Below are positions 320-21,360 of a stretch of DNA of 64,000 bases, in pieces; positions within the stretch are counted from its first letter, which is position 1; every line of letters starts with the position of its first letter. Source of the DNA: an uncultured Eubacteriales bacterium (GTDB lineage Bacteria; Bacillota; Clostridia; Oscillospirales; Oscillospiraceae); contig ONBX01000001.1 of assembly GCA_900316205.1 (NCBI GenBank), forward strand, positions 1 to 64,000. Direction: 5' to 3'. A model generated the notes under the pieces. The model saw nothing but the letters and a program-made list of their open reading frames with translations, was not told the origin of the DNA and did no database searches. Both the position numbers and the translations under genes were made by a program.

Positions 320-1375
320 ATGGCTAAGGTTAAAGTCGGCGTTGCGGGCTACGGAACCATCGGCACCCGCCTGGCAGACGGTGTTGCGCTGCAGGAGGAC
401 ATGGAACTCGTAGGTATCGTGGGACACTCTCCCTCTCTGGCCATCCGGGCCCTTGCGGAAAACGGCATGATCGGCGTGAACGGGGTGGAGTACAAGCTGT
501 ACCTGGTGGACATGGCCCTCAAGCCCAAGTTCGACGCACTGGGCATCCCTGTGGAGGGCAGCTTTGAGGAGCTGTGCGCCAAGGTCGACGTGATGCTGGA
601 CGCCTCTCCCGGCGGCACCGGCGCTGCCAACAAGGCCGTCTATGAAAAGATGGGCGTGAAGGCCATCTTCCAGGGCGGCGAGAAGAACAGCGTGGCAGAC
701 GTGTTCTTCCATGGCTATGCCAACTACGAGCTGGGCCTGGGCAAGCAGTTCCTGAAGCTCACCAGCTGCAACACCACCGGCCTCATCCGTGCCGTTGACT
801 GCCTGGACCGCAAGTTCGGCATCGAGAAGGTCGCCATCACCATCATCCGCCGCGTGGCCGATCCCGGCGATTATCACCGCGGACTTACCAACGCCCTGCA
901 GATGGAGAAGGCCCCCAGCCACCAGGCTGTTGACCTGATGACCATCATGCCCCACATCAATGCCACCGGCATTCTGGTCCACACCCCTGTGACCCACGGC
1001 CACATCATCACCGTTCTGGCCACCGCCAAGGACGGCAGGAAGATCACCCGCGAGGAAGCCATCGAGGCCTTCCGTGCGCATCCCCGTATCCGCACCGTCA
1101 CCATCGACGAGGGCTTCAAGGGCAACGCCAGCTTCTTCAAGTATGCCCGCGACCTGGGCAACCGCCGCGCCGACATGTATGAGATCGGCCTGTGGGAGGA
1201 CAGCGTTGTGGAGAGCGGCAACGACATCATGTTTGCCATCCACATCCCCCAGGAGAGCGTCACCATCCCTGAGACCATCGACGGCGTGCGCGCTGTGATG
1301 CAGATGCAGCCCACCAGCGCCGAGGCCACCGCCGCCACCAACAAGAACCTGAACATCGGCCGCTTCAAGAAGTGA
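320..1375 (+). CDS. gap: archaeal-type (type II) glyceraldehyde-3-phosphate dehydrogenase-like protein
   Basis: 351 residues, the usual length of the archaeal class of phosphorylating GAPDH, which oxidises an aldehyde to an acyl phosphate with NAD(P). A Rossmann GYGTIG lies at 10-15, the catalytic Cys150 is in SCNTTG, paired arginines are at 177-178, and the active-site histidines are 226 and 228. The segment that in archaeal enzymes reads roughly PSHHGxD, near the substrate phosphate, is PSHQAVD here (199-205). It is the first gene of an operon with a PGK-like gene, transketolase and iol genes. I infer the substrate may be D-malate semialdehyde rather than glyceraldehyde-3-phosphate. An ordinary glycolytic role cannot be excluded. 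Confidence 0.85.
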   Translation: MAKVKVGVAGYGTIGTRLADGVALQEDMELVGIVGHSPSLAIRALAENGMIGVNGVEYKLYLVDMALKPKFDALGIPVEGSFEELCAKVDVMLDASPGGTGAANKAVYEKMGVKAIFQGGEKNSVADVFFHGYANYELGLGKQFLKLTSCNTTGLIRAVDCLDRKFGIEKVAITIIRRVADPGDYHRGLTNALQMEKAPSHQAVDLMTIMPHINATGILVHTPVTHGHIITVLATAKDGRKITREEAIEAFRAHPRIRTVTIDEGFKGNASFFKYARDLGNRRADMYEIGLWEDSVVESGNDIMFAIHIPQESVTIPETIDGVRAVMQMQPTSAEATAATNKNLNIGRFKK

Positions 1376-1385
1376 GGGCAGGCCC

Positions 1386-2645
1386 ATGCGTTTTGGAATC
1401 AGAACCCTGGATGAGCTGGACGTAAAGGGCAAGACCGTCCTTTGCCGGGTGGACATCAACCAGCCGGTGGATCGGGCAACCGGCACGCTCAAGAGCATCA
1501 ACCGCATCCGCGCCTGCGTGCCCACCGTCCGGGAGCTTTCGGACAAGGGCGCAAAACTGGTGCTCATGGCCCATCAGGGAAGCGACATCGAGTATAAGAA
1601 TTTCTACACCACCAAGCCCCATGCCGCCGTGCTGACGGAGCTGCTGGGCCGGGAGGTCAAGTGGATCGACGACGTGTGCGGTCCCGCCGCCCGGGAGGCG
1701 ATCCGGAGTCTGAAGGAAGGGGAGATCCTGCTGCTGGACAACGTCCGTTTCGTCTCCGAGGAGCAGACGCTCTTTGAAACGAAGCTGCACCTGACCCACG
1801 AGCAGCAGGCCAAGACCCTGCTGGTGGAAAAGCTGGCGCCTCTGGGCGATGTCTACGTGTGCGACGCTTTTGCCGCCGCCCACCGGGACCAGCCCAGCCT
1901 CTGCGGCTTCGAGCAGGTGCTGCCCTCCGCCATGGGCCGCCTCTTTGAGCGGGAATACTGCACCGTCTCCCAGGTGATGGAGGAGCCAGTCCGCCCTTGC
2001 GTGTTCGTGCTGGGCGGCGCCAAGATCTCTGACGCCTTCCTGATGATGCAGACGGTCCTGTCCCGGGGTGTGGCCGACAAGATCCTCACCGGCGGTCTTG
2101 TGGGCAACATCTTCCTCACCGCGCTGGGCGAGAACATCGGCCAGGGCAGTGTGGACTTCATCCTGAAATCCAATTACGGCGAGTACATCGACCGGGCCAG
2201 GGAGCTCTACGCCCAGTACGGCGAGAAGATCCTGCTGCCGAAGGACCTGGCCTGGGTGGAAAACGGCGAGCGCAAGGAAGCAAAGCTCGGCTCCGTTCCC
2301 GCGGACATTGCCTCTGTGGACATTGGCAGCGAGACTGCCGCGGCCTACCGGGAGGAGATCCTGGCGGCCGGCACGGTCTTCGTCAACGGCCCCATGGGCG
2401 TCTTTGAGAAGGCTGAGAGCGAGCTTGGCACCAAGACCGTGTGGCAGGCCATCGCCGACACCAAGGGGCATACCGTTCTCGGCGGCGGCGACAGCATCAC
2501 CGCCACCGAAAAATACAAGCTGACCGAGCAAATGGACTATATCTGCACCGGCGGCGGCGCCCTGATCCGCTTCCTCAGCGGGGAGGAGCTGCCGGTGGTG
2601 AAGGCTCTGCGCCACGGCTCGACCATTCAGCCAAAGGGGGACTAA
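1386..2645 (+). CDS. pgk: archaeal-type phosphoglycerate kinase-like protein
   Basis: 419 residues aligning along the whole archaeal PGK fold. PGK transfers phosphate from an acyl phosphate to ADP. Substrate-site residues visible are Asp23, Asn25, Arg42, His63 and the arginines of DNVRF and AAAHRDQPS. The motif that normally reads H-x-G-R, whose arginine binds the 3-phosphate of phosphoglycerate, reads HQGS here, so Ser66 replaces that arginine. The C-terminal nucleotide region NGPMGVFE and GGGDS are present. The start is 10 nt after the GAPDH stop. With the altered GAPDH upstream I infer an acyl phosphate with a non-phosphate distal group, such as malyl phosphate. A plain glycolytic PGK is the alternative. 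Confidence 0.85.
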   Translation: MRFGIRTLDELDVKGKTVLCRVDINQPVDRATGTLKSINRIRACVPTVRELSDKGAKLVLMAHQGSDIEYKNFYTTKPHAAVLTELLGREVKWIDDVCGPAAREAIRSLKEGEILLLDNVRFVSEEQTLFETKLHLTHEQQAKTLLVEKLAPLGDVYVCDAFAAAHRDQPSLCGFEQVLPSAMGRLFEREYCTVSQVMEEPVRPCVFVLGGAKISDAFLMMQTVLSRGVADKILTGGLVGNIFLTALGENIGQGSVDFILKSNYGEYIDRARELYAQYGEKILLPKDLAWVENGERKEAKLGSVPADIASVDIGSETAAAYREEILAAGTVFVNGPMGVFEKAESELGTKTVWQAIADTKGHTVLGGGDSITATEKYKLTEQMDYICTGGGALIRFLSGEELPVVKALRHGSTIQPKGD

Positions 2646-2647
2646 TC

Positions 2648-3490
2648 TTGCAGGAGAACAACAAACTGAAGGCCTTTGCGGCCCAGATCCGCATGGCCGC
2701 CATCGAAGCGATCCATTCCATCGGCTCCGGCCACATCGGCGGCGCGCTGAGCATTGCGGATGTTCTGGCGGTGCTCTACGGCCATGAGATGCGCTACGAT
2801 CCCCAGAACCCCAGCTGGCCCGAGCGGGACAAGCTGGTCTGCTCCAAGGGCCACGCAGGCCCCGCGGTCTACGGTACCCTGGCGCTGAAGGGCTTCTTCC
2901 CCTATGAGGAGCTGAAGACCCTGAACCGCCCCGGCACCCATCTGCCCAGCCACTGCGACCGGAACAAGACCCCCGGCGTGGATATGACCACCGGCTCTCT
3001 GGGCCAGGGCACCTCCCTTGCCTGCGGCATGGCCCTGGGCGACAAGCTCCGAGGCCGTGATAGCCGAGTCTTCCTCATCGTGGGCGACGGCGAAAGCAAC
3101 GAGGGCCAGGTGTGGGAGGCTTTTGCCTTCGCCGCGGCCAAGAAGCTGGGGAACCTGGTGGTCCTGCTGGACTGGAACAAGCGCCAGCTGGACGGCTGGA
3201 CCAAGGACGTTTATCCTATGGGAGACTTTGTTGCCAAGTTTGAGGCCTTCGGCTTCGACACCGTGAAGGTCAACGGCAACGATATCGACGAGCTGGTCCC
3301 CGCCCTGGAGCGCACCCGCGCCGGCGGCGACAGGCCCTACGCCATCGTGATGGACACCGTGAAAGGTGCGGGCGTGGCCGAAGTGGCCGAGAAGGTCATG
3401 AACCACAGCCTGCCCGTGAACGACGAGCAGTACGAGCGCTGGACCGCCCAGCTCAAGGAAGAGATCAAGGCCCTGGAGGTGGAGAAATGA
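2648..3490 (+). CDS. transketolase, N-terminal (thiamine-diphosphate-binding) subunit
   Basis: 280 residues from a TTG start at 2648. I chose this start because AAAGGGGG lies 6-7 nt upstream and the previous gene stops 2 nt before it; an upstream in-frame extension would be buried in pgk. It has the thiamine-diphosphate/Mg motif (GDGESNEGQ followed by N) and the family motif GSLGQG. The usual GHPD motif at the catalytic histidine reads SHCD, as in the second split transketolase at 44556. It works with the next gene, with which it overlaps by 4 nt. Transketolase moves a two-carbon ketol from a ketose to an aldose. In this operon 5-dehydro-2-deoxygluconate is a plausible donor. Confidence 0.88.
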   Translation: MQENNKLKAFAAQIRMAAIEAIHSIGSGHIGGALSIADVLAVLYGHEMRYDPQNPSWPERDKLVCSKGHAGPAVYGTLALKGFFPYEELKTLNRPGTHLPSHCDRNKTPGVDMTTGSLGQGTSLACGMALGDKLRGRDSRVFLIVGDGESNEGQVWEAFAFAAAKKLGNLVVLLDWNKRQLDGWTKDVYPMGDFVAKFEAFGFDTVKVNGNDIDELVPALERTRAGGDRPYAIVMDTVKGAGVAEVAEKVMNHSLPVNDEQYERWTAQLKEEIKALEVEK

Positions 3491-4455
3491 AGATCGTATA
3501 TGATGGAAGCATGGATCCCCGCCTCTGCAAGGCCGTCCTGGGGGAGACCATCCCCGCCATGGCGGCGGAGGACCCGGATCTCATCTACCTGGACGCTGAC
3601 CTGATGAACTGCATCGGCACGGCCAAGTGGGCCGCTGCCAACCCCGACCGTGCCGTGAACTGCGGCATTGCCGAGGCCAATATGATCGGTGTGGCCGCGG
3701 GCCTGGCCTCCGCCGGCTTCAAGCCCATCGTGCACACCTTCGGACCCTTCGCGTCCCGCCGCTGCTATGATCAGCTCTTCCTCTCCGCGGGCTATGCGAA
3801 AAACGACATCACCGTCATCGGCACTGATCCCGGCGTCACCGCTACCCTCAATGGCGGTACCCACATGCCCTTTGAGGATGTGGCCCTGTATCGCGCCCTG
3901 CCCGGCTCCACCATCATCGATGTCACCGATCCCGCCATGCTCATCAGCGTCCTGCACCAGTGCAAGGACCGCCCGGGCGTGAAGTATATCCGCGTGGGCC
4001 GCAAGAGCTACGCCCGGGTGTACGAGGACGGAAGCGAGCTGCCCATCGGCAAGGCCGTCACCTTGCGGGAAGGCACGGATCTTGTGATCTTTGCCTGCGG
4101 CATCATGGTGCACGAGGCCTTGCAGGCTGCCGCCGCACTGGAGAAGGAGGGCATTTCCGCCGCCGTGCTGGACATGTTCACCATCAAGCCTCTGGACGCG
4201 GAAGCGGTCGTGGCCTGGGCGGAGAAGACCGGTGCTGTTGTTGTCGCGGAGAACCATAACCGCTTCGGCGGCCTCTGCTCCGCCGTCAGCGAAGTCCTGG
4301 CCGAGCGCTGCCCCACTCCCGCCGCTTTCGTGGCAGTGGAGGACCAGTTCGGCGAAGTCGGCCCCCAGGCCTATCTGCAGGAGCGCTTCGGCCTGACCGC
4401 CGCCCACATTGAGGAGGCGGCACGCAGCGTTCTGAAGAGGAAAGAAACGAAATGA
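3487..4455 (+). CDS. transketolase, C-terminal subunit
   Basis: 322 residues covering the pyrimidine-binding and C-terminal transketolase domains. The catalytic glutamate that activates thiamine diphosphate is in NCGIAEANM. It overlaps the N-terminal subunit gene (ATGA), which indicates translational coupling of a heterodimeric enzyme. Together the pair should cleave a D-threo ketose between C2 and C3 and pass the ketol to an aldose phosphate. Its position beside inositol genes, rather than pentose phosphate genes, is the unusual feature. Housekeeping pentose metabolism is the alternative. Confidence 0.88.
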   Translation: MKIVYDGSMDPRLCKAVLGETIPAMAAEDPDLIYLDADLMNCIGTAKWAAANPDRAVNCGIAEANMIGVAAGLASAGFKPIVHTFGPFASRRCYDQLFLSAGYAKNDITVIGTDPGVTATLNGGTHMPFEDVALYRALPGSTIIDVTDPAMLISVLHQCKDRPGVKYIRVGRKSYARVYEDGSELPIGKAVTLREGTDLVIFACGIMVHEALQAAAALEKEGISAAVLDMFTIKPLDAEAVVAWAEKTGAVVVAENHNRFGGLCSAVSEVLAERCPTPAAFVAVEDQFGEVGPQAYLQERFGLTAAHIEEAARSVLKRKETK

Positions 4456-5705
4456 AGCTGGAATTCGGATTCGGCACCGGCGTCCAGACCGTGGAGGTCC
4501 CGGACAGAAATCTGCGGGGAGTGCTGCGGGCCAATGAGGCCCCGGCCATCCCCTCGGAGGAGGAAGAGATCCGCCGCGCCCTGCGGGAGCCTGTGGGCTC
4601 CCCCCGGCTGCGGGAGATCGTCCGTCCCGGCAAGACCGTTGCCATCGTCACCAGCGACCTGACCCGCCCCATGCCCACGGCCAAGGTCATGCCCGCCCTG
4701 CTGGACGAGCTCTATGCCGGGGGCGTGCGGCCGGAGGATATCACCCTGGTCTTTGCCCTGGGCAGTCACCGGCACCAGACCGAGGCGGAGCAGAGAAAGC
4801 TCGCCGGCGAGCGTGCCTGGCAGGAGATCCGCTGCGAGGACAGTGACCCGGAGGACTGCGTGCCTCTGGGCGTCACCACCGCGGGCACCCCGGTGGACAT
4901 CACCCGGGCGGTGGCGGAGGCAGATATCCGCATCTGCCTGGGCAATGTGGAATACCACTATTTCGCCGGCTACTCCGGCGGCGCCAAGGCCATCATGCCC
5001 GGCTGTTCCACCCGGGCCGCCATCCAGGCCAACCACTCCATGATGGTGCGGGATGACGCCTGCGCCGGACGGCTGGAGGGCAACCCCCTTCGCATGGACA
5101 TCGAAGAGGCCGGGGACATCTGCGGCATCGATTTCATCCTGAACGTGGTGCTGGGCGAGCATAAGCAGATCCTGAAGGCTGCCGCCGGCGACGTGAAGGC
5201 AGCCCACAGGGAGCTCTGCGCTTTTCTGGACACCATTTATCTCAAGCAGCTTCCCGAGGCTGCGGACATCGTGCTCGTCAGCCAGGGAGGGGCCCCCAAG
5301 GACCTGAACCTGTACCAGACCCAGAAGGCTCTGGACAATGCCCGCCACGCGGTGCGCCAGGGAGGCATCATCATCCTCATCGGCTCCTGCAAAGAGGGCC
5401 TGGGCGAACGGGTTTTCCAGGAGTGGATGACCACCTCCCCCTCGCCGGAAGCCATGATCGAGCGCATCGGCCGGGACTTCCAGCTGGGCGGTCACAAGGC
5501 GGCCGCCATTGCCATGACCCTGCAGAAGGCGAAAGTCTATCTGATCTCGGACCTGGAGGAGGACTTTGTCCGCTCCATTTTCCTCAGCCCCATGCCCTCG
5601 GCCCAGGCGGCGCTGGACGCGGCCTTTGCTGAGCTTGGAGAGGATGCCAGCGTGCTGGCCATGCCCTTCGGCGGCTCCACGCTGCCCCGCATCATCGTTT
5701 CTTAA
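4452..5705 (+). CDS. larA: LarA-family nickel-dependent 2-hydroxyacid racemase
   Basis: 417 residues. All LarA catalytic positions are recognisable: Asp69 and Arg72 (SDLTRP), His106 (GSHRHQ), His169 (EYHYF), Lys179 (GGAKA, the nickel-pincer attachment lysine) and His195 (NHSMM). The family racemises or epimerises lactate, malate and sugar acids using a nickel-pincer nucleotide made by LarB, LarC and LarE, none of which is in the window. The start overlaps the transketolase stop (ATGA). In this operon I infer D-malate to L-malate conversion. Lactate or an aldonate are alternatives. Confidence 0.87.
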   Translation: MKLEFGFGTGVQTVEVPDRNLRGVLRANEAPAIPSEEEEIRRALREPVGSPRLREIVRPGKTVAIVTSDLTRPMPTAKVMPALLDELYAGGVRPEDITLVFALGSHRHQTEAEQRKLAGERAWQEIRCEDSDPEDCVPLGVTTAGTPVDITRAVAEADIRICLGNVEYHYFAGYSGGAKAIMPGCSTRAAIQANHSMMVRDDACAGRLEGNPLRMDIEEAGDICGIDFILNVVLGEHKQILKAAAGDVKAAHRELCAFLDTIYLKQLPEAADIVLVSQGGAPKDLNLYQTQKALDNARHAVRQGGIIILIGSCKEGLGERVFQEWMTTSPSPEAMIERIGRDFQLGGHKAAAIAMTLQKAKVYLISDLEEDFVRSIFLSPMPSAQAALDAAFAELGEDASVLAMPFGGSTLPRIIVS

Positions 5706-5719
5706 GAAAGGACGCAGCT

Positions 5720-6784
5720 ATGCATATCAATTACGAAGAAGAAAGAAACCTGGTCAAGGGCATCCTGACCGCGGCCAAGTTCCCCGAGGAGGACGCGGAC
5801 ATCATTGCCAAGGTCATTACCCATTCGGATTTCACCGGCGTCTATTCCCACGGCCTGTCCCGTCTGACCCGCTATATGCGGCAGATCAAGGCCGGTTCCC
5901 TGAACCCCCGCCCCAACTTCCGCAAGGTGCTGGACAGCGGCTCCGTCATGGTTTTTGACGGGGACAGCGGCTCCGGCATCGTCTCCCTGAACAAGGCCTA
6001 TGACGAGCTGCTGGCCCGGGTCAAGGAGACCGGCATCGCCATGGCCACCGGCCGCCACAACGCCAACATCGGCTGCGGCTCCTATTACGGCTGGCGCGCC
6101 GCGGCGGACAACATGGTGGCACTGGTGTGCTGCAATACCTATGCCTTCACATCTCCCTTCGGCGGGGCGGACCGGCTCATCGGCACGAACCCCATCATCC
6201 TGGGTGTGCCCGCGGGCAAGGAATACCCCATTGTGATGGACATCTCCACCACCTGCGTGGCCATGGGCAAGATCCAGGCTGCCGAGCGGGAGGGCCAGGC
6301 CATTCCCGCCGAGTGGGCCAAGGACTATGACGGCGCTCCCACCACCGATCCCGCCAAGGCCTTCTCCCTGTCTCCCATCGCTGGCCACAAGGGCTACGGC
6401 CTGGCCGTGATGGTGGACGTGCTCTCCACCATGTTCTCCGGCGCCTGCTTCGGCACGGACATCGGCCTCTTCTCCAAGCTGGAGAAGGAGAACACCGGCT
6501 TCTGCCTGATCCTGATCGATCCCAGCCGCTTCATGCCCCTGGAGGACTTCAAGGCCGAGGTGGACCGCTACGCCCGCATGATGAAGGACGGCCGCAAGGC
6601 TCCCGGCGTCAAGGAGATCTTCCTGCCCGGCGAGATCGAGTTCAAGAAGTTCGACGCCATGAAGGAGACCGGCTTTGAGGTGAGCGAGGCGCTCTCCAAA
6701 GAACTGACCGAGCTTTCCATCACCCTGGGCGCCGTGGAAGAGGGCACCGACTTTGCGGGCCTGGTGCGGCATTTCAACGCATAA
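5720..6784 (+). CDS. malate/L-lactate dehydrogenase family (Ldh_2) oxidoreductase
   Basis: 354 residues, full length for the NAD(P)-dependent Ldh_2 family, which is unrelated to Rossmann-fold malate dehydrogenases and includes L-malate, L-sulfolactate, ureidoglycolate and 2,3-diketogulonate enzymes. The catalytic histidine region VYSHGLSRL (about residues 40-48), the GTNP motif and AGHKGYGLA are present. AAGGA is 9 nt before the start and the gene follows larA by 14 nt. After a racemase I infer interconversion of L-malate and oxaloacetate. Reduction of a keto sugar acid is the main alternative. Confidence 0.83.
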   Translation: MHINYEEERNLVKGILTAAKFPEEDADIIAKVITHSDFTGVYSHGLSRLTRYMRQIKAGSLNPRPNFRKVLDSGSVMVFDGDSGSGIVSLNKAYDELLARVKETGIAMATGRHNANIGCGSYYGWRAAADNMVALVCCNTYAFTSPFGGADRLIGTNPIILGVPAGKEYPIVMDISTTCVAMGKIQAAEREGQAIPAEWAKDYDGAPTTDPAKAFSLSPIAGHKGYGLAVMVDVLSTMFSGACFGTDIGLFSKLEKENTGFCLILIDPSRFMPLEDFKAEVDRYARMMKDGRKAPGVKEIFLPGEIEFKKFDAMKETGFEVSEALSKELTELSITLGAVEEGTDFAGLVRHFNA

Positions 6785-6807
6785 AAGCGAAAAGGAGATA
6801 AAACTTC

Positions 6808-7710
6808 ATGTTTGATACCAAGAACGTTCATCTGGGCATTGCCCCCATCGGCTGGTGCAACGACGATATGCCGGAGCTGGGCGCTGAGAACACCTTCAAG
6901 CAGACCGTGAGTGAAATGGCTCTCGCCGGCTTCACCGGCTGCGAGATCGGCAACAAGTACCCCAGCGATCCCGTGGAGCTCAAAAAACAGCTGGACCTGC
7001 GCGGCATGCGCATCGCCAGCCGCTGGTTCTCCTCCTTCCTGCTGACCAAGCCCTATGAGGAAGTGGAAGCCGACTTCATCCGGGAGCTGGACTTTCTGGC
7101 CGCTGTTGGCGCCAACCGCATCAACGTCAGCGAGCAGAGCTACTCCATCCAGGGCAAGGTGGACGTCCCCATCCTCACCGGGGGCCACAAGTATGTGATG
7201 AACGACGAGGAGTGGGACCGCTTCTGCGACGGTCTCAACAAGCTGGGCCGCGTGGCAAGGGAACGGGGCTTCAAGCTCTGCTTCCACCACCACATGGGCA
7301 CCGTGGTGCAGACCTCCGAGGAGACCGACCGCATGATGTCGGGCACCGACCCCGAGGCCGTGTTCCTCTGCTATGACACTGGCCACTTCACCTTTGCCGG
7401 CGAGGATCCCCTGACCATGCTGAAAAAGTACGTGGACCGGGTGGGCCATGTGCATCTCAAGGACATGCGTCTCAGCGTGGTGGAGGAAGCCAGAAAGAAC
7501 AACTGGAGCTTCCTGACCTCCGTGCGCAACGGCGCCTTCACCGTCCCCGGTGACGGCGACGTGGACTTTGACCCCGTGTTCCAGGTGCTGGCCGAGGCCG
7601 GCTACCAGGGCTGGCTGCTGGTGGAGGCCGAGCAGGATCCCGCCAAGGCCGATCCTCTGGAGTACGCCATCAAGGGCCGCAGATACATCCGTGAGCACAC
7701 CGGACTGTGA
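6808..7710 (+). CDS. iolE: inosose dehydratase
   Basis: 300 residues with an AP-endonuclease-2-like TIM barrel. It dehydrates 2-keto-myo-inositol to 3D-trihydroxycyclohexane-1,2-dione, the second step of inositol catabolism. IolE-like features include GIAPIGWCNDDMPELG near the N terminus, the metal region CFHHHMGT, CYDTGHF, and HVHLKDMR. AAAAGGAGA precedes the start. It sits with iolB, iolD and iolG, which together give four consecutive steps of the upper pathway. Confidence 0.93.
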   Translation: MFDTKNVHLGIAPIGWCNDDMPELGAENTFKQTVSEMALAGFTGCEIGNKYPSDPVELKKQLDLRGMRIASRWFSSFLLTKPYEEVEADFIRELDFLAAVGANRINVSEQSYSIQGKVDVPILTGGHKYVMNDEEWDRFCDGLNKLGRVARERGFKLCFHHHMGTVVQTSEETDRMMSGTDPEAVFLCYDTGHFTFAGEDPLTMLKKYVDRVGHVHLKDMRLSVVEEARKNNWSFLTSVRNGAFTVPGDGDVDFDPVFQVLAEAGYQGWLLVEAEQDPAKADPLEYAIKGRRYIREHTGL

Positions 7711-7717
7711 GGCTGGT

Positions 7718-8518
7718 ATGACTTACCTGAACAAGAACGCCGAGCTGAAGCGGGGCTACAACAGCTATATCGACACCGCCGAGGACGACTACGGCACCAT
7801 GATGGATGTGGGCCTGCTGCTCATGGAGGAAGGGGACACCTTCTCCATTCATGAGGAGGAGAAGGAATGTGCGGTGCTGCTTTTCCAGGGCGAGGTGGAA
7901 ATCGCCTGGAACGGCAAGGCCGTTGAGGCTGAGCGTCCCGACTGCTTCCACCACGAGGCCTACTGCCTGCTGGCGCCCCGGCGCACCCAGATCCGTCTCA
8001 CCGCCCGCTGCCACAGCGAGATTTACATTCAGAAGACCCTGAACGAGCGGGACTATGAGGCCATCCTCTACACCCCCGAGACCGTGCAGACCCAGCACGC
8101 CGGCGCCAACGGCGAGCTGATGGGCGCCATGAAGCGGGAGATCAAGACCTTCTTCGACTATGACAACGCCCCCTTCTCCAACATGGTCCTGGGCGAGGTG
8201 CTCAGCTACCCCGGCAAGTGGTCCAGCTATCCGCCCCATCATCACCCCCAGCCCGAGGTCTACTTCTACCGCTTTGACTATCCCGACGGCTTTGGCGCCG
8301 GCTTTGCCAACGGCGAGATCTACAAGACCCAGCACAACGGCATGAGCGTCATCACCTCGGGCTTCCACTCCCAGGTCACCGCTCCCGGCTACGCCCTCTG
8401 CTACTCCTGGGGCATCCGTCACCTGGACGGGGATCCCTGGCTCAAGACCCGCATCGACGATCCCGAACACGCCTGGCTCTGGAAGCCAGACGCCAACGAC
8501 CACATCTTCAAGGGATAA
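7718..8518 (+). CDS. iolB: 5-deoxy-glucuronate isomerase
   Basis: 266 residues from ATG 7718, just after the iolE stop. An in-frame extension to 7550 would lie inside iolE and is not used. IolB is a bicupin that isomerises 5-deoxy-D-glucuronate to 5-dehydro-2-deoxy-D-gluconate. The metal-binding cupin motif [15 protein letters not shown] and the C-terminal [12 protein letters not shown] segment are visible. Its product is the proposed substrate of the operon's transketolase. Confidence 0.93.
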
Positions 8519-8529
8519 GGAGGAAGACT

Positions 8530-10455
8530 ATGAAAACCGTACGTCTGACTATGGCGCAGGCCCTGGTCCGCTTCCTGGAAAACCAGTACATCGCCTATGA
8601 CGGCATCGAGCATCCCTTTGTGGAGGGTGTGATCATGCTGCCCGGACACGGCAACGTGGTGGGCCTTGGACAGGCTCTGGGCCAGGAGGCACACCGGATG
8701 CACGTCTGGCAGGGCAAGAACGAGCAGGGCATGGCCCATACCGCCGTGGCCTTCGCCCGCCAGTGCAAGCGCAAAAAGATCATCGCCGTCACCAGCTCTG
8801 TCGGCCCCGGCGCCGCCAACATGGTCACCGCCGCCGCCACCGCCACCGCCAACAACATCCCCGTGCTGATCCTGCCCGGCGATGTGTACGCCTGCCGCCA
8901 GCCGGATCCGGTGCTGCAGCAGGTGGAGCAGATCCACGATCTGTCCCTCTCCACCAACGACGCCTTCCGTGCCGTCTGCCGTTACTGGGACCGCATCGTC
9001 CGCCCCGAGCAGCTGATGAGCGCCATGATCTCCGCCATGCGCGTGCTCACCGATCCCGCCAACACCGGCGCGGTCTGCATCGCCATGCCCCAGGACGTGG
9101 AAGGGGAGGCCTATGACTACCCCGAAAGCTTCTTCCGCAAACGGGTGCACCGTCTGGCCCGCCGTCTGCCGGAAGAGGAGGCCCTCAAGGAGGCTGCCGC
9201 CCTCATCCGCGCCGCCAAGCGCCCCCTGATGATTTGCGGCGGCGGCGTTCGCTACAGCGAGGCCCACGAGCAGTTCCGCACCTTTGCGGAGGTCACCGGC
9301 ATTCCCTTCGGCGAGACCCAGGCGGGCAAGAGCGCCGTGGTTTGGGATCATCCCCTGAACCTGGGCGGCATCGGCGTCACCGGCTGCTCCGCCGCCAATG
9401 AGATCGCCAAGGACGCGGATGTCATCATCGGCGTGGGCACCCGCTACACCGACTTTACCACCTCTTCCAAGTGGCTTTTCCGGGACGACGCCAAGTTCGT
9501 GAACATCAACGTCTCCGAGTTCCAGGCCCTGAAGATGGACGCGGCCGTCCCCCTGGTGGCGGACGCCAAGATGGCCCTGCCTGCCCTGCTCGAGGAGCTG
9601 GAGGGCTATAAGGCCCCCTACACCACCGAAGTGGACGAGGCCATCGCCCGCTGGAAGCAGGAGCTGAAGCGCCTGGACGGCATCAGCTTCGGCCCGGATT
9701 ACGTGCCCGAGGTGAACGACGCCAACGCCAGATCCGCCTTCCGCTTTGCGGAGGATCTGGGCGCCGAGCTGACCCAGACCGCGGTGCTGGGCGTCATCAA
9801 CGAGTGCATCGATCCCGAGGACGTGGTCATCGGCGCCTCCGGCTCCCTGCCCGGCGACATGCAGCGCATGTGGCGGCCCAAAGCTGTCGACACCTATCAT
9901 ATGGAGTACGGCTACTCCTGCATGGGCTATGAAGTGTCCGGCGCCCTGGGCGTGAAGTACGCCATCGGCGACAGGGACGTCTATGCCATGGCCGGCGACG
10001 GCAGCTTCATCATGCTCCACTCCGAGATGCTCACCGCTCTCCAGGAGCACAAGAAGATCAACATCTGCCTCTTCAACAACGCCAGCTTCGGCTGCATCAA
10101 TAACCTGCAGGTGGGCCACGGCAACGACACCCTCTGCACCGAGCTTCGCTTCCGCGGCGAGGACGGCGCCCACTCCGGCCCCTTCATGCCCGTGGACTTT
10201 GCCAAGATCGCCGAGGGCTACGGCTGCAAGGGCTACACCATCCACTCGCTGGAGGAGCTGCGCGCGGCCATTCGTGATGCCAAGAAGATCGAAGGCGTGC
10301 CCGTCCTGTTTGATATCCGGGTCCTGCCCAAGAGCATGACCGAGGGCTACGGCTCCTGGTGGCGCGTGGGCGACACCGAAGTCAGTGAGAATCCCCGGAA
10401 TCTGGAAGCTTACCGGGATACGGCAGCCCATGTGGAAACTGCCAGAAAGTTTTAA
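8530..10455 (+). CDS. iolD: 3D-(3,5/4)-trihydroxycyclohexane-1,2-dione hydrolase
   Basis: 641 residues, the normal length. This thiamine-diphosphate enzyme of the acetolactate-synthase superfamily opens the inositol-derived ring to 5-deoxy-glucuronate. The N-terminal region has the cofactor glutamate neighbourhood [13 protein letters not shown] and a GPGAANM segment. The C-terminal cofactor motif is [11 protein letters not shown] followed by NNASFG. AAGGAGGA lies before the start. It is one of three thiamine-diphosphate proteins in the operon. Confidence 0.94.
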
Positions 10456-10469
10456 GGAGGATAAAAACA

Positions 10470-11507
10470 TTGGATAAGGTTCTGAAAATCGGTCTGATCG
10501 GCTGCGGCGCCATTGGCAAGGATCACTGCCGCCGCATCATTGAAAAGGTCCCCGGCGCCACCGTGGTGGCTGTGGCCTCCAACACCGCCAAGAGCGCGGA
10601 TGATCTGGCTGCCAAGTACGGCATCCGCTCCTTCGGCAGCGACTGCAACGGCCTCATCGCCGATCCCGAGGTGGAAGCCGTTGTCATCACTTCCATCGAC
10701 TCCACCCATCACGACTACGTGATGGAGGTGCTCAAGCACGAGAAGTGGTGCTTCTGCGAAAAGCCCCTGAGCCAGAATGCCGCGGATTGCGAGGAGATCA
10801 TCGCCCGCGAGCTGGAGATCGGCAAGCGTCTGGTGCAGGTGGGCTTCATGCGCCGCTACGACCGCGGCTATGCCGAGATGAAGCGTATCATCGACTCCGG
10901 CGAGATCGGTGCGCCTCTGCTCATCAAGGCCTGCCACCGCAACGTCTCCCAGGGCCCGGGCTTCCAGACCGAGAACGGCATCACCAATGTGGCCATCCAC
11001 GAGCTGGACATCTGCCGCTGGCTGCTGGGCGACGAGTACGAGGATGCCCAGTGCGTCCGCGTCCGCCAGAGCGCCAACTCCACCAAGGGCTACGACAACC
11101 CCCAGGTGGTGCTGCTGCGCACCAAGAAGGGCTGCTTCATCGATGTGGAGGTCCAGGTGGCCGACGGTTACGGCTATGACATCCAGTGCGAGGTCGTCTG
11201 CGAGAACGGCACCGTGAAGCTCCCCGACCCCTACGCCGTGGTGCGCCGCTCCCGTCCCGCCGGCTGGGACAGCCTGAATCCCGCCGAGAGCATGCCCATC
11301 ATGACCGACTGGAAGGAACGCTTCATCGAGGCCTATGACATCGAACTCTGCGCATGGGTCGACTCCGTGAACAAGGGCAAGCTCACCGGCCCCTCCGCCT
11401 GGGACGGCTACGTGGCCTGCGTTGCGGGCGACGCCCTGAACGCCTCCCGCGGCACCTCTCAGTTCCTGAAGGTCCAGACCATCGAGAAGCCCGAGCTTTA
11501 CTGCTGA
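10470..11507 (+). CDS. iolG: inositol 2-dehydrogenase (Gfo/Idh/MocA family)
   Basis: 345 residues from a TTG start at 10470, chosen because AAGGAGG at 10454-10460 is well spaced. The N-terminal Rossmann motif is GLIGCGAIG and the Gfo/Idh signature EKP lies in CEKPLS. The catalytic region contains NVAIHELDICRWLLG. It oxidises myo-inositol to 2-keto-myo-inositol with NAD, the first step of the pathway. It is the last gene of the operon and is followed by a terminator. The exact inositol isomer cannot be read from sequence. Confidence 0.88.
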   Translation: MDKVLKIGLIGCGAIGKDHCRRIIEKVPGATVVAVASNTAKSADDLAAKYGIRSFGSDCNGLIADPEVEAVVITSIDSTHHDYVMEVLKHEKWCFCEKPLSQNAADCEEIIARELEIGKRLVQVGFMRRYDRGYAEMKRIIDSGEIGAPLLIKACHRNVSQGPGFQTENGITNVAIHELDICRWLLGDEYEDAQCVRVRQSANSTKGYDNPQVVLLRTKKGCFIDVEVQVADGYGYDIQCEVVCENGTVKLPDPYAVVRRSRPAGWDSLNPAESMPIMTDWKERFIEAYDIELCAWVDSVNKGKLTGPSAWDGYVACVAGDALNASRGTSQFLKVQTIEKPELYC

Positions 11508-11888: not shown

Positions 11889-13715
11889 GTGAAAACCAAG
11901 AAAATACGAAGGCCATTCAGCTTGACAAGGCTGAAAAACCAGTTCCTGGGTGTCGTCAAAAATCCCTTCAATCTGGTGGTCATGATCAGCCTGATCGTGC
12001 TCTTCTGCCTGATCGTGATCCCTCTGCTGCAGATGATCGCCGCCACCTTCACGGTGGCCAAGGGCGAGCTGCGCAGGATCCCGGGTGCCAAGGTAGGGGA
12101 CTTCACCCTGTACTATTGGAAGTATCTGGTGGCCGGGCAAATGTCCAAAGCAACCCTGTGGGGCCCGCTGAAAAACTCCCTGATCTGCGGCTTCTTCACA
12201 GTGCTGGTCTCCGTCCCTCTGGGCAGCGTCCTGGGCTGGCTCGTCGCCCGCACCGATATCCCCGGCAAAAAGCTTCTGGGCATGCTGGTGGTCATTCCTT
12301 ACATGATCCCCTCCTGGTGCAAGTCCCTGGCCTGGCTGGCGGTGTTTCGCAACAAGACCTCCGGCTCTCTGGGCTTTCTGGAGGGCATGGGCTTGCACAT
12401 ACCGGACTGGCTGGCCTACGGACCGGTGGCCATTGTCCTTTGTATGTCCCTGCATTATTACGCATTTTCCTATATCCATGTGCAGTCGGCGCTGCGCTCC
12501 ATCAACTCGGAGCTGGAGGAGATGGGTGAGATCTGCGGCGCCACCAAGCCCCAGATCCTGAAATCCATCACCATTCCGCTGGTGCTGCCCAGCGTCCTCT
12601 CCGCCGTGGTCATGACCCTTTCCAAGTCCATCGGCACCTACGGCGTGGCGGCAAACCTGGGCAACCGCATCGGCTACTTTACCCTGGCCACCAAGATGAA
12701 GAACTTCATCAACGGCAGTCCCCAGAACGTGGGCTTTGCCATGAGCATCATCCTCATCGCACTGGCGGCCCTCATCATCTTTGCCAACCAGCGCCTCATC
12801 GGCGTGCGCAAGAGCTACGCCACCATCGGCGGCAAGGGTGGGCGCAGCACCGAGATGCGGCTCGGCAAGGCCAAGGCGCCGCTGATGGTTTTCCTGGTGG
12901 TGTTCCTGTTCTTCGCCATGGTCATGCCCATGTTCGTGCTGGTGATGGAGACCTTCCAGATCAACACCGGCGCGGGCTACGCCCTCAAGAATCTCACGCT
13001 CTATAACTGGATCGGCTCCAGCGAGGAGCTGGCGCCTTACTACACCAGCTATAAGGGCATTTTCTACAACAGCGAATTCGGCAAGTCCGTGTTCAATACC
13101 GTGCGCCTGACCCTGATCGCTTCGGTGATCACCGCCCTCTGCGGCCAGTTCCTGGGCTATATCACCACCCGCGGCCGCGGCAAGTGGTACGGCAACCTCA
13201 CCGAGCAGCTGGTTTTCATCCCCTATCTGATGAGCGGCATCGCCTTTTCCACCATGTATGTGGCCATGTTCTCCAAGCCCCACCTGGGCGGCCTGATCCC
13301 CTCGCTCTACGGCACCTTCACCCTGATCGTGCTTACCAGCGTGGTCAAGCATTTCCCCTTTGCCAGCCGCTCCGGCACCGCCAATATGATGCAGATCGCC
13401 GTGGAGCTGGAGGAGGCGGCGGAGATCAACGGCGCGGGCTTCGGCAAGAAGCTGACCCGCATCGTCCTGCCCCTTGCCAAGAACGGTTTCATCTCCGGCT
13501 TTATGCTGACCTTTATCAGCATTGCCAAGGAGCTTGACCTGATCATCATCATGATGGACAAGCGCACCACCACCATGTCCTACCTGGCCTTCACCTATTC
13601 CCAGGACGGCATGAACCAGATGGCGGACGCCATCTCCGTTTGTGTGCTGCTGTTCATCCTGGTCTGCTACATCATTGCCAACAAGTTCGGCGCCGACATC
13701 GGCAAGTCGTGGTAG
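11889..13715 (+). CDS. ABC transporter fused permease (FbpB/AfuB type)
   Basis: 608 residues from a GTG start preceded by AAAGGGG. Two binding-protein-dependent permease domains are fused in tandem, with about 12 membrane segments in all. Each half carries an EAA loop: EEMGEICGATKP in the first and EEAAEINGAGFG in the second. This fused arrangement is typical of ferric-ion, aminoethylphosphonate and hexose-phosphate importers. ATPase and binding-protein genes follow. The substrate is not determined by sequence; the adjacent iol operon suggests inositol or an inositol derivative. Confidence 0.85.
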   Translation: MKTKKIRRPFSLTRLKNQFLGVVKNPFNLVVMISLIVLFCLIVIPLLQMIAATFTVAKGELRRIPGAKVGDFTLYYWKYLVAGQMSKATLWGPLKNSLICGFFTVLVSVPLGSVLGWLVARTDIPGKKLLGMLVVIPYMIPSWCKSLAWLAVFRNKTSGSLGFLEGMGLHIPDWLAYGPVAIVLCMSLHYYAFSYIHVQSALRSINSELEEMGEICGATKPQILKSITIPLVLPSVLSAVVMTLSKSIGTYGVAANLGNRIGYFTLATKMKNFINGSPQNVGFAMSIILIALAALIIFANQRLIGVRKSYATIGGKGGRSTEMRLGKAKAPLMVFLVVFLFFAMVMPMFVLVMETFQINTGAGYALKNLTLYNWIGSSEELAPYYTSYKGIFYNSEFGKSVFNTVRLTLIASVITALCGQFLGYITTRGRGKWYGNLTEQLVFIPYLMSGIAFSTMYVAMFSKPHLGGLIPSLYGTFTLIVLTSVVKHFPFASRSGTANMMQIAVELEEAAEINGAGFGKKLTRIVLPLAKNGFISGFMLTFISIAKELDLIIIMMDKRTTTMSYLAFTYSQDGMNQMADAISVCVLLFILVCYIIANKFGADIGKSW

Positions 13716-14004: not shown

Positions 14005-15123
<1,119 letters not shown>

Positions 15124-15199
15124 ACCAAGTCCAACAGCGGCGGACGCCGCAAAAAATAAGAAGTTTACCCTGCAACAATTTGAAAGGAGTACGAAAAAG

Positions 15200-16540
15200 A
15201 TGAACAGCAAACGGATCCTGGCCCTGCTGATGGCCCTGTGCATGGTCTTCAGCTTCGCCGCCTGCGGCGAAAGCGCCGCCCCTGCCCAGCAGAGCGAAAC
15301 CGCTAAGGAGGAGGCTCCCGCTGCGGAGGCTCCCGCTGCCGAAGCCCCTGCTGCCGAAGCCCCTGCCGAGGAAGCCGCTCCCTCCGTGGAGGACTCCCAG
15401 TTCTTTGGCCCCATCTACGACGACTGGAGCAAGATGACCGACGAGGAGCTCTACGCTCTGGCCCAGGAGGAAGTGAAGGACGGCAGCGCCATCAACATCT
15501 ATGCCACCTCTTCCAAGATGCTGAAGGTGAAGGACACCTTTGAGGAAGCCTTCCCCGGCCTGACCGTGGACATCATGGACCTGGACAATGACGAAGTGCT
15601 GCAGAAGTGCCGCCTGGAAGCCAATGCCGGCAACGTCCAGGGCGACGTGCTGCAGGTGAAGGACGTCAACGGCGACGTGTTCTTCGGCGACTATGAGGAC
15701 GGCATCATTTCCGCCTTCTATCCTGAGGATATCTGCGCCCACATCGACGACGGCCTGCTCCGCTACGGCTATCCGCTGTACGCTTCCCAGTCCTTCTGGT
15801 TCTACAACACCGAAGCCTTCCCCGAGGGCCAGCCTGTTGACAGCTGGTGGCAGATCATCGAGAAGAACGAGGACGGCAGCCAGAAGTACCGCCTCTTCAC
15901 CAAGGAGATCGGCTCCGAGACCGCATACCTGTCCCTCTTCGCCAGCTTCATCGTGAACGCCGACCAGATGGCCGCCAACTACAAGGAAGTCTACGGCGAG
16001 GATCTGGAGTACACCTATGACGCCAGCGCCTTCCCCAACATCCCTGCGGACAACGCCGGTATTGAGTACCTGTGGCGCTTCAGTCAGATGAAGATCACCT
16101 TCATCGGCGACGGCGATGAACTGGTGGAAGCTGTCCACAACTCCACTGCCGAGGATCCCGCTCTGGCCCTGGCCTCTGCCGGCAAGATCACCAACCGGGA
16201 CGATTCCGGCTTCAACATCGGCTGGGTCGTGCTGAATCCCTACAACGGCCTGCAGAACCTGGAGTACCTGTACGTTGTCAACAACTGCAAGCATCCTGCC
16301 GGCGCCCGTCTCTTCATCCGCTTTGTCACCGGCGGCGCTGACGGCGAGAGCGGCGGCTTCAAGCCCTTTGCCAAGGAAGGCAACTGGCCCGTCCGCGACG
16401 ACGTGAAGGACAAGAAGAACGAGATGACCCTGGCCGAACTGAACGCTGCCGAGCCCGATCTCGCCTCCATCTACAACGTGTTCCTGGACGCCCAGGACCT
16501 GTGGATCTACTGGCTGGACCAGAACCCCAACATCGGCTGA
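15200..16540 (+). CDS. ABC transporter extracellular substrate-binding lipoprotein
   Basis: 446 residues from ATG 15200, with GAAAGGAG at 15182-15189. A lipoprotein signal ends at FSFAAC, so the mature protein starts at that cysteine. A low-complexity Ala-Pro-Glu linker built from repeats of APAAE follows, then a family-1 periplasmic-binding fold resembling iron- or sugar-phosphate-binding proteins. It captures the substrate for the two preceding gene products. A terminator follows, closing the three-gene operon. Confidence 0.85.
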   Translation: MNSKRILALLMALCMVFSFAACGESAAPAQQSETAKEEAPAAEAPAAEAPAAEAPAEEAAPSVEDSQFFGPIYDDWSKMTDEELYALAQEEVKDGSAINIYATSSKMLKVKDTFEEAFPGLTVDIMDLDNDEVLQKCRLEANAGNVQGDVLQVKDVNGDVFFGDYEDGIISAFYPEDICAHIDDGLLRYGYPLYASQSFWFYNTEAFPEGQPVDSWWQIIEKNEDGSQKYRLFTKEIGSETAYLSLFASFIVNADQMAANYKEVYGEDLEYTYDASAFPNIPADNAGIEYLWRFSQMKITFIGDGDELVEAVHNSTAEDPALALASAGKITNRDDSGFNIGWVVLNPYNGLQNLEYLYVVNNCKHPAGARLFIRFVTGGADGESGGFKPFAKEGNWPVRDDVKDKKNEMTLAELNAAEPDLASIYNVFLDAQDLWIYWLDQNPNIG

Positions 16541-19195: not shown

Positions 19196-20212
19196 TCAGA
19201 GCCGCTTGCGGTAGGGGGCGCAGGAGGAGCGCTCCACCAGGGTGGGGGAGAGAATCCGGTGGGAGTAGCCCGCCTGCTCGTTCTGGATCTTGTCCAGCAA
19301 GGTATCCACCGCCACGGAAGCCAGCATCTTCTTGGGCTGCTCGATGGTGGTAAGCTCGATGCGGGGCAGGCCGCTGTCCCGGATGTTGTCAAAACCCAGC
19401 AGCGACAGGTCCTCCGGGATGCGCAGACCGATCTCCTCCGCCGCCTGCATGATGCCCAGAGCATTGGTGTCGGTGGCGGCGAAGATGGCGGAGAAGCGCA
19501 GCTCCTGGGAGAAGAGCTGCTTTGCCAACTGGTAGCCGTACTTGATGGAGGAAGAGGAGAAGGTGTTGTTGCAGTAGCGTGGCGTCAGCCCAAAGTGCTC
19601 GCAGGCGGCGGCGTAGCCCTCCGCACGCAGCTGATGGGTGGTGCTGGCCCGGCGGCGGCCGAAGTAGAGGATGTCCCGGTGGCCCAGCTTGTAGAGATAC
19701 TCCATGCCGATCTGGGCGCCCCGGAAATTATCCACAGAGACGTAGCTCTCCGGCACCTCCCGCAGGTTTTCTCCGATAAAGACCGTGGGGATGCGGCTGA
19801 GGTAGGGGGAGAGCTTGTTGTAGCTCTCCATGCCGGAGGGGATCAGCAAGACCCCGTCCACCTGCCGGCCAATCATCAGCTCGAAGAGCTCCCGCTCCTG
19901 CTCCGGGTCCCGGGAGGAATTGCAGAGGATGATGTTGTAGCCCCTGGCTCGCACCTGCCGGTCGATGTGGTAGGCCAGCTCCGCCATGAAGGGGTTGTTC
20001 ACACTGGTGAGGATCAGCCCCAGGAGCTTGGTGCTCTTCATGACCATGGAGCGGGCCACGGTATTGGCTGTGTAGTTCATGTCCTTGCAGATCTGCAGGA
20101 TCCTCTCCCGGGTCTCCTGGCTGATCTCCGGGCTGCCCGTCAGGGCGCGGGAGACGGTGGAATAGGAGACGCCGGCGGCCTTGGCCACGTCTTTGATGGT
20201 TACATTTTTCAT
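19196..20212 (-). CDS. LacI-family transcriptional regulator
   Basis: 338 residues. The N-terminal helix-turn-helix is MKNVTIKDVAKAAGVSYSTV, followed by the hinge helix (NTVARSMVMKS) and a periplasmic-binding-like effector domain with GLILTSVNNPFMAELA and the dimerising C-terminal region. The gene is divergent from the HAD/mutase/kinase operon. A LacI-type half-palindrome centre (AAACGTTT) lies at the operon promoter, so it probably represses that operon until a sugar or sugar phosphate binds. On its own strand a TATAAT (plus-strand coordinates 20243-20248) lies upstream without a clear -35 box. Confidence 0.9.
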   Translation of the reverse strand: MKNVTIKDVAKAAGVSYSTVSRALTGSPEISQETRERILQICKDMNYTANTVARSMVMKSTKLLGLILTSVNNPFMAELAYHIDRQVRARGYNIILCNSSRDPEQERELFELMIGRQVDGVLLIPSGMESYNKLSPYLSRIPTVFIGENLREVPESYVSVDNFRGAQIGMEYLYKLGHRDILYFGRRRASTTHQLRAEGYAAACEHFGLTPRYCNNTFSSSSIKYGYQLAKQLFSQELRFSAIFAATDTNALGIMQAAEEIGLRIPEDLSLLGFDNIRDSGLPRIELTTIEQPKKMLASVAVDTLLDKIQNEQAGYSHRILSPTLVERSSCAPYRKRL

Positions 20213-20494
20213 AACGATCCCCTCGTGACGAAAATTTCCGGAATTATATCGAAAACATTGTACCCCATCCCTTCCAAAAACGCAAGGTCATTTTTGTGAA
20301 ATATCACGGAGAAGCCGCCAAAGATATTGGGCGATCCGGGCAAGCTTCTGGTGAAAATGACGGAGAAAAGGAAAAAACACTTCAAATGCCGGAAAAACCC
20401 GGGAATGAACCGGAAATATCCTGTAAAGAACGCGGAAAAGTTCCGAAAACGATTAAAAAAGCTTGAAAACTCTCAATATAAGGGAAACTAATGC

Positions 20495-20523
20495 TTGACG
20501 GATAGAAGAAAAAGCGGTATCCT
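20495..20523 (+). promoter_or_regulatory. promoter of the HAD/mutase/kinase operon
   Basis: TTGACG (20495-20500) and TATCCT (20518-20523) have a 17-bp spacer, 51 nt before the first start codon. The remaining intergenic DNA (20250-20494) is AT-rich and shows no gene. Confidence 0.65.
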
Positions 20524-20538
20524 GTTAGAGGAATGAAT

Positions 20539-20552
20539 CGGAAACGTTTGAG
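20539..20552. promoter_or_regulatory. putative LacI-family operator
   Basis: CGGAAACGTTTGAG contains the palindrome AAACGTTT with the central CG typical of LacI-family sites. It lies just downstream of the predicted transcription start, where binding would block transcription. Confidence 0.5.
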
Positions 20553-20573
20553 TATCAAGAAAGGAGCGCTGTG

Positions 20574-21317: not shown

Positions 21318-21360
21318 GGAAAAATCGATAAAACAGATACAAAGAAAGGAAGGACGGAAC

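Follow-up and report, generated by a model that had tools for sequence, protein, structure and literature searches.

The window analysed here is the first 64 kb (64,000 nucleotides) of contig C40 (ONBX01000001.1), from an uncultured Eubacteriales bacterium of the family Oscillospiraceae whose genome comprises 2.78 Mb in 88 contigs and is 96.4% complete. Near the contig end lie ten plus-strand genes (positions 320 to 11507) that combine homologues of two glycolytic enzymes, glyceraldehyde-3-phosphate dehydrogenase (GAPDH) and phosphoglycerate kinase (PGK), with a split transketolase (TK), a putative malate racemase, a dehydrogenase, and four genes of inositol catabolism. The intergenic gaps run from -4 to 23 bp, as in a single tight operon, and because the window starts at the contig end, only 319 bp are visible 5' of the GAPDH gene. 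We predict from sequence comparison, with a probability of roughly 80%, that this operon degrades inositol to oxaloacetate without a kinase, and it would then represent a new variant of inositol catabolism. In operon order the genes are:

320..1375, + strand: GAP2, a type II (archaeal-type) GAPDH homologue; NF003251 388 bits, cut-off 185; SCNTT motif kept; predicted phosphorylating D-malate-semialdehyde dehydrogenase
1386..2645, + strand: PGK homologue; PF00162 388 bits; Ser replaces the basic residue of HxGR/K; predicted D-malyl-phosphate:ADP phosphotransferase
2648..3490, + strand: split TK, N half; PF00456 168 bits
3487..4455, + strand: split TK, C half; PF02779 and PF02780; Lys-Cys-Asp-Asn at human R318/S345/H416/D424; predicted donor 5-dehydro-2-deoxy-D-gluconate
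4452..5705, + strand: LarA, of the nickel-pincer malate racemase type; NF052593 557.8 bits, cut-off 500; GHK motif; predicted to convert D- to L-malate
5720..6784, + strand: Ldh_2 dehydrogenase; PF02615 349 bits; predicted to convert L-malate to oxaloacetate
6808..7710, + strand: IolE, myo-inosose-2 dehydratase; TIGR04379 405 bits, cut-off 290
7718..8518, + strand: IolB-like 5-deoxyglucuronate isomerase; PF04962 158 bits; TIGR04378 96.6 bits, under the cut-off of 205
8530..10455, + strand: IolD, trihydroxycyclohexane-dione hydrolase; TIGR04377 897 bits, cut-off 715
10470..11507, + strand: IolG-like inositol dehydrogenase, TTG start; NF052679 358 bits (cut-off 540) and TIGR04380 189 bits (cut-off 355), both unmet

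All ten genes lie where an earlier note on this DNA had placed them, and in family profile searches each matched the family assigned to it there. The N half of the TK likely starts at a TTG at 2648, its reading frame staying open further 5'. The best solved relative of the operon PGK is the Pyrococcus horikoshii PGK (2cun), so that the label "archaeal-type" given to it in the earlier note is fair. The operon is without iolC, iolJ, and iolA.

The earlier note had held its proposal to depend on there being no normal iolC elsewhere in the genome. Across the whole of this 96.4% complete assembly, nothing scored above 147 bits with the iolC model, whose cut-off is 300. We then have the distribution across a sample of 391 genomes from the class, in which 27 carried iolE over its cut-off, 16 carried GAP2, and 13 carried iolC over its cut-off. 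Among the 27 iolE genomes, 11 had GAP2 without iolC, 11 had iolC without GAP2, five had neither, and none had both, a mutual exclusion that favors the kinase-free reading. Fisher's test gave P values of 3.5e-4 for the exclusion of GAP2 and iolC and 6.6e-11 for the association of GAP2 with iolE, both uncorrected for kinship; the GAP2 group of 11 genomes spans nine families, and the iolC group of 11 spans five. GAP2 and iolE lay at most about 11 kb apart on one contig in seven of the 11 GAP2 genomes. Two others (G098 and G340) have contig ends with further pathway genes that suggest the same linkage, and in G322 the two genes are on two contigs. Around iolC, none of the 11 stretches of 18 to 19 kb contained GAP2, PGK, LarA, malic enzyme, or TK. 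When one iolC protein was used as a query against 112 other loci (80 + 20 + 12, including L107 to L111, the loci of the five iolE genomes with neither gene), a single weak match was returned, a kinase in L117 at 28%. The iolC model also gave sub-cut-off scores of 206 to 228 bits in G179, one of the GAP2 genomes, and in four of the five genomes with neither gene.

Related loci were collected with a GAP2 alignment of 29 proteins, from which the best 80 of 455 relatives, i.e., the closest, were taken; many of these stretches are short contigs, and the absence of a gene from a stretch is weak evidence. Most of the 80 are from Clostridia (among them Oscillospiraceae and Lachnospiraceae), with others from Treponema and other Spirochaetes and one each from Chloroflexi, Anaerolineaceae, and planctomycete metagenome-assembled genomes, and a rumen or gut origin is given for many. 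In the same stretch as GAP2 we found PGK in 71, LarA in 57, iolE in 42, iolD in 40, the TK C half in 39, the TK N half and an iolG-like gene in 36 each, iolB in 35, and a malic enzyme cluster, its family assigned on one representative, in 28. Either iolE or iolD shared the stretch in 43 loci. For 25 of the 38 loci with no iolE in the stretch, iolE was over its cut-off elsewhere in the genome, such that 67 of the 80 carry both GAP2 and iolE. A cultured carrier, Oscillibacter valericigenes An411, has GAP2-PGK (L032) and, on a different contig, iolE-iolB-iolD.

The latter part of the operon points to malate. LarA passes the curated cut-off of the family "nickel-dependent malate racemase, LarAH6", as the earlier note's proposal would predict, and its best solved relative is the malate racemase Mar2 (6d6z, 385 bits). 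Its GHK motif aligns with AHK of Mar2 and fits the rule for malate racemases by which H or Q occupies the position of LarA W358 and K that of T359 (PMC11770544). Among 58 linked LarA proteins, the motif reads LGGHKA in 44, LGSHRA in three, and LGGIKA in one, and the pattern was not found in 10. The available text of two LarA papers (PMC7583248 and PMC11770544) mentions neither inositol nor transketolase. Between LarA and iolE stands an Ldh_2 gene in the window and in L013, L015, and L016, and, by tblastn, in L017. A malic enzyme gene takes that place in six loci (L019, L020, L021, L023, L024, and L025), which argues for the malate-using last step proposed earlier, and in L027, L029, L034, L040, L043, and L071 iolE follows directly 3' of LarA. 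What points most strongly to D-malate as the product of the preceding enzymes is this arrangement, in which a putative malate racemase is succeeded at one position by one or the other of two enzyme families that use malate.

The active sites of TK and PGK are altered. In 40 of 41 linked TK C halves, His is changed to Asp at the position of human H416 and Asp to Asn at D424; the lone exception is the second TK of L056. Lys stands for Arg at R318 in 38 and Cys for Ser at S345 in 32 (Ser is kept in five), while the Arg at R474 is kept in 40. Seven loci without a nearby TK were checked, and L025, L027, L040, and L071 have a relative of 68 to 73% with the same motif elsewhere. In a TK tree, the linked proteins and some relatives join, with a node support of 0.996, the clade of a second split TK of the window (44520-46310), which lies in a sulfoquinovose-type cluster and has R-A-D-R at the same positions. 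The sulfofructose transketolase of Faecalicatena has RAFDR where phosphate-using enzymes have RSFHR (PMC11659671); R-A-D-R agrees with that motif, and the His-to-Asp change is common to the operon TK. An Escherichia coli TktA with the changes R358I, H461S, and R520Q makes tartaric semialdehyde from 5-ketogluconate (PMC12016104), and the third of these positions is still Arg in the linked TKs. The changes common to the operon TK and the sulfofructose-type clade are what would be expected of a TK acting on an anionic, non-phosphorylated ketose, as the earlier note had supposed. The Asp-Asn motif was also considered as a mark unique to inositol clusters and was rejected as such, the wider clade including the sulfoquinovose-type TK of the window.

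That second TK belongs to a sulfoquinovose-type sulfo-TK cluster at 43048-49343. It has a sulfoquinovose-isomerase-like gene (NF048012 385 bits, cut-off of 700 unmet), the split TK, an RpiB-like gene, an iron-containing dehydrogenase, and a transporter-like gene, none of them over a curated equivalog cut-off.

In PGK, the basic residue of HxGR/K is presumably part of the substrate site for 3-phosphoglycerate. This residue is gone in 71 of 72 linked PGKs, being replaced by Ser in 66 (including the window protein, HQGS) and by Asp in five, with a gap in the remaining one, and the other PGK of the genome keeps Lys. D21, N23, R36, H59, R118, and R151 (Thermotoga labels), which we take to be substrate contacts, are kept in 71 or 72 of the 72. 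The pattern is consistent with a substrate other than 3-phosphoglycerate, again as had been proposed. For GAPDH, there are 21 alignment columns in which three solved archaeal enzymes agree on one residue and at least 93% of 81 linked proteins agree on another, including columns that adjoin the SCNTT motif or fall in the RGLTN segment.

Taken as a pathway, the operon would run as follows. The IolG-like, IolE, IolD, and IolB-like proteins would lead to 5-dehydro-2-deoxy-D-gluconate. As a ketose, this compound shares its D-threo arrangement with xylulose and fructose, with CH2-COO- where xylulose 5-phosphate has CH2-OPO3. The TK would transfer its C5-C6 ketol to an aldose phosphate, for which glyceraldehyde 3-phosphate, giving xylulose 5-phosphate, is the predicted acceptor by analogy with sulfo-TK, and would leave D-malate semialdehyde (3-hydroxy-4-oxobutanoate). 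Removal of the ketol gives 3-hydroxy-4-oxobutanoate of the D-glyceraldehyde configuration, and oxidation of this gives D-malate. Our working from known configurations agrees with the stereochemical argument of the earlier note, by which the carboxylate counterpart of D-xylulose 5-phosphate leads to D-malate. The GAPDH homologue would then convert D-malate semialdehyde and phosphate to 1-malyl phosphate, and the PGK homologue would transfer the phosphate to yield ATP and D-malate. LarA would convert D-malate to L-malate, and Ldh_2 would oxidize L-malate to oxaloacetate, the malic enzyme of the relatives giving pyruvate instead. The D configuration of the malate would explain the need for a racemase. 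The three C4 acids would be carboxylate counterparts of glyceraldehyde 3-phosphate, 1,3-bisphosphoglycerate, and 3-phosphoglycerate, and the route from inositol to malate likely gains ATP where the classical route spends it. Beyond the curated families, we infer the donor of the TK, the malyl phosphate, the fate of the ketol, and the catalytic steps from these comparisons, which support the pathway of the earlier note as a whole.

The iolE genomes with neither GAP2 nor iolC suggest a further version. A transaldolase-like gene of about 358 amino acids lies inside the iol cluster of four of them (G037, G065, G082, and G093) and of G179. Relatives of this gene are also present in G155 (on other contigs), at a further place in G179, and in G322, at 63% or more in the first two and 29% in the third. 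An IolA homologue over its cut-off is near the iol cluster in G037, G065, and G093. The loci with the transaldolase-like gene in an iolC-free iol cluster are L107, L108, L109, L110, and L118. The fifth genome with neither gene, G169 (L111), carries several iolG-like genes along with an iolE over the cut-off that is 49% to the nearest in the set, and its stretch is without iolD. If a transaldolase acted on 5-dehydro-2-deoxygluconate, the products would be malonate semialdehyde and a dihydroxyacetone unit, the latter going into fructose 6-phosphate. The lower half of inositol breakdown has probably split, in the manner of sulfoglycolysis, into versions based on a kinase and an aldolase, on a transaldolase, or on a transketolase.

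Several observations weigh against the reading of the operon as a dedicated inositol pathway. The genomes of 13 of the 80 GAP2 loci have no iolE over the cut-off, and neither do five of the 16 GAP2 genomes of the class, although in one of these five, G383, the module is adjoined by iolB and iolD. We therefore rejected the idea that every GAP2 module serves inositol; given these 13 loci and five genomes, the module probably has a part in other pathways as well. In L056 it stands beside UxuA and mannitol-dehydrogenase-type genes, and in L102 beside a mannonate-oxidoreductase-type short-chain dehydrogenase (over its cut-off), a zinc dehydrogenase, and a TRAP transporter. In L101 the neighbors are an IolB-like protein, dehydrogenases, and an EutH-like protein. 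Such GAP2-PGK-LarA-malic enzyme modules with other neighbors suggest other substrates. The earlier note had not anticipated the occurrence of the GAP2 module with other upper genes, or the transaldolase version. Conversely, L172 (5203-11837), from a genome (G336) that also carries an iolC cluster, has iolD-iolE-iolG-iolB, a split TK with the Asp-Asn pair, and a permease-like gene, with no GAP2 or PGK. Together with the modules beside other genes, L172 indicates that the TK and the GAPDH-PGK module can each serve without the other and that malic semialdehyde could also come from other sources.

Further points on that side concern single genomes and single genes. In G179, GAP2 is about 157 kb from iolE, iolE has the transaldolase-like gene as a neighbor, and the iolC-like match reaches 208 bits, under the cut-off of 300. 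Among the loci without a nearby TK, the genomes of L039 and L044 have only TK relatives of 40 to 45%, with Asp-Asn kept, and that of L026 has only a DXS-like match; three of the six TK matches of G322 were read, and all were without the Asp-Asn pair. In the window, the IolB-like and IolG-like proteins fall under their NCBIfam cut-offs, yet both are clear matches to their Pfam families. LarC was not found in two of the 11 GAP2-iolE genomes. The window genome has a LarC-type Ni_insertion match on contig C52 (E value of 1.8e-139, in a search for LarC), and we rejected the nickel cofactor genes as a discriminator, LarC being present in 20 of the 27 iolE genomes of all types. Similarly, iolA gave no match reaching an E value of 1e-80 genome-wide, and its absence was rejected as evidence because the same test finds none in nine of the 11 iolC genomes of the sample; iolA is over its cut-off in one of 11 GAP2, two of 11 iolC, and three of four transaldolase-only genomes and does not discriminate. 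Finally, carnitine breakdown naturally includes the oxidation of malic semialdehyde to D-malate, and Acinetobacter baumannii forms D-malate by an ordinary aldehyde dehydrogenase (PMC11353897), which implies that malate semialdehyde does not demand a GAPDH-PGK pair.

Could the operon instead work together with an unrecognized kinase and aldolase encoded elsewhere, which handle 5-dehydro-2-deoxygluconate while GAPDH, PGK, and TK are ordinary, co-expressed glycolytic and pentose-phosphate enzymes processing the triose product? The genome has ten PfkB-family matches, two of which are pieces of one frame, and one of the proteins is in the window at 25220-26104. It also has two class II aldolases on other contigs, one like fructose-bisphosphate aldolase and one beside an FGGY kinase, and a family match does not assign either as IolJ. 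However, no PfkB protein reaches the iolC cut-off (the best has 147 of 300 bits), and none of eight PfkB-type proteins compared with NCBIfam reaches any kinase cut-off. The kinase at 25220-26104, which adjoins HAD phosphatases and a permuted phosphoglycerate mutase, is a weak candidate for a hidden 5-dehydro-2-deoxygluconate kinase, with no NCBIfam kinase model near its cut-off. A second PGK is already present elsewhere in the genome, so the operon PGK is not the sole one. A malate racemase with Ldh_2 or malic enzyme would be left unexplained, as would the altered substrate sites of PGK and TK and the mutual exclusion of GAP2 and iolC. We consider this explanation improbable.

Slightly less probable still is that TK, GAPDH, PGK, and LarA act on some other acid, e.g., a tartrate-like acid from a 5-keto-hexonate or fructuronate, with the iol genes as a separate input in the same regulon. 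The neighbors of the module in L056 and L102 would fit such a role, and tartrate is also used by malate racemases (PMC11770544), but NCBIfam groups the operon LarA with malate racemases, iolE or iolD shares the stretch in the window and in 43 of the 80 loci, and the window operon has no further sugar-acid gene. There is also a very slim chance that the pathway runs as proposed to malate semialdehyde, with the GAPDH homologue non-phosphorylating or working in reverse, the PGK otherwise used, and no ATP made at that point. The altered TK and permease gene in the iol cluster of L172, without GAP2 or PGK, and the phosphate-free oxidation of malic semialdehyde in carnitine breakdown (PMC11353897) could be read in this way. 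Against it stand the Cys of the SCNTT motif, which is present, and the PGK that shares the stretch with GAP2 in 71 of 80 loci.

The kinase-free, ATP-yielding route that we prefer resembles several known systems in part. With the classical pathway of Bacillus subtilis and Salmonella (IolG-E-D-B-C-J-A), it has the IolG, IolE, IolD, and IolB steps in common, and its upper end would be the same 5-dehydro-2-deoxy-D-gluconate, whereas here there is no IolC over the cut-off and no IolJ or IolA in the operon, and the predicted cut at C4-C5 would give a C4 acid and a C2 ketol rather than malonate semialdehyde and dihydroxyacetone phosphate. The sulfo-TK pathway (SqwGH) shares the split TK with His changed to Asp. 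Its donor is an unphosphorylated anionic ketose and its ketol goes to glyceraldehyde 3-phosphate, as we infer for the operon TK also; here a carboxylate would take the place of the sulfonate, and the C4 aldehyde would be oxidized with a gain of ATP instead of being isomerized and cut again. With lower glycolysis there are two enzyme families and the predicted chemistry in common, an acyl phosphate and then ATP, but the predicted substrate has a carboxylate in place of the triose phosphate, and the HxGR/K basic residue is lost. The Thermotoga maritima-type inositol route (IolM, IolN, and IolO) runs without IolE and IolD; both are present here, and the operon does not match it.

Other parallels concern malate and its semialdehyde. 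LarAH6/MAR2 of Thermoanaerobacterium thermosaccharolyticum is of the same curated family as the operon LarA, with AHK there and GHK here, where the racemase is predicted to join inositol-derived D-malate to L-malate enzymes. In carnitine breakdown, purified enzymes take malic semialdehyde to D-malate and on to pyruvate; however, the aldehyde is derived from carnitine, there is no acyl phosphate or ATP, and D-malate is oxidized directly, with no racemase (PMC11353897). The engineered E. coli TktA used in Gluconobacter cuts the same bond in 5-ketogluconate, the 2-hydroxy analogue of the predicted donor, to give tartaric semialdehyde, whereas a set of natural enzymes is proposed here. More broadly, we find it rather probable that bacteria of several phyla have a carboxylate mirror of lower glycolysis, in which a dedicated, energy-conserving GAPDH-PGK pair is fed by a TK for anionic ketoses (from inositol in most of the genomes seen, in some from other acids), and that inositol breakdown comes in three versions, as sulfoglycolysis does.

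A literature search, with subscription papers and preprints outside it, did not find a description of this pathway. The available text of papers on malyl phosphate or malate semialdehyde concerned an engineered 2,4-dihydroxybutyrate route or carnitine breakdown, with no link to inositol found. A 2022 survey of 193,757 genomes required three of the four core genes iolB, iolC, iolD, and iolE; a missing fourth gene was ascribed to incomplete genomes, assembly errors, or frameshifts and was found elsewhere in 810 of 1,024 three-gene cases (PMC9430895). Clusters of the present type could pass that survey with iolB, iolD, and iolE and be read as incomplete. In a 2026 culture study, 40 isolates grew on inositol although just 19 genomes had the known cluster, which led to the suggestion of an unidentified route (PMC12838507); the organisms named there, E. 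coli, B. subtilis, Paenibacillus, and Lysinibacillus, need not use the present route. If Clostridia, Spirochaetes, and others do have a kinase-free route, the tally of inositol and phytate users would change, and different products (malate, oxaloacetate, or pyruvate) would be predicted. The route would also add a substrate-level phosphorylation via 1-malyl phosphate and be a case in which members of the GAPDH and PGK families have been taken over for a substrate with a carboxylate.

Downstream of the operon, three open frames look by sequence like a candidate ABC transporter and are possibly for uptake of the pathway substrate:

11889-13715, + strand: first open frame; a 79% relative also lies 3' of iolG in L029
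13963-15123, + strand: second open frame
15113-16540, + strand: third open frame

On the minus strand at 30506-37152, genes resemble, judged by their sequence, those for citrate lyase subunits, the ligase of this enzyme, a citrate-type transporter, and a lipoate-ligase-like protein. At 19196-26104, the window has a LacI regulator, HAD phosphatases, a permuted mutase, and the PfkB kinase discussed above. These families also adjoin inositol genes in related loci, and the genes possibly act on an inositol phosphate. The mutase (23579-25147) is a circularly permuted 2,3-bisphosphoglycerate-independent phosphoglycerate mutase, its residues 15-305 corresponding to 219-509 of 1ejj and its residues 315-521 to 6-214. 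The permuted form also occurs in L040, and its cluster stands 5' of iolG-GAP2 in nine loci (L023 to L027, L034, L040, L043, and L071).

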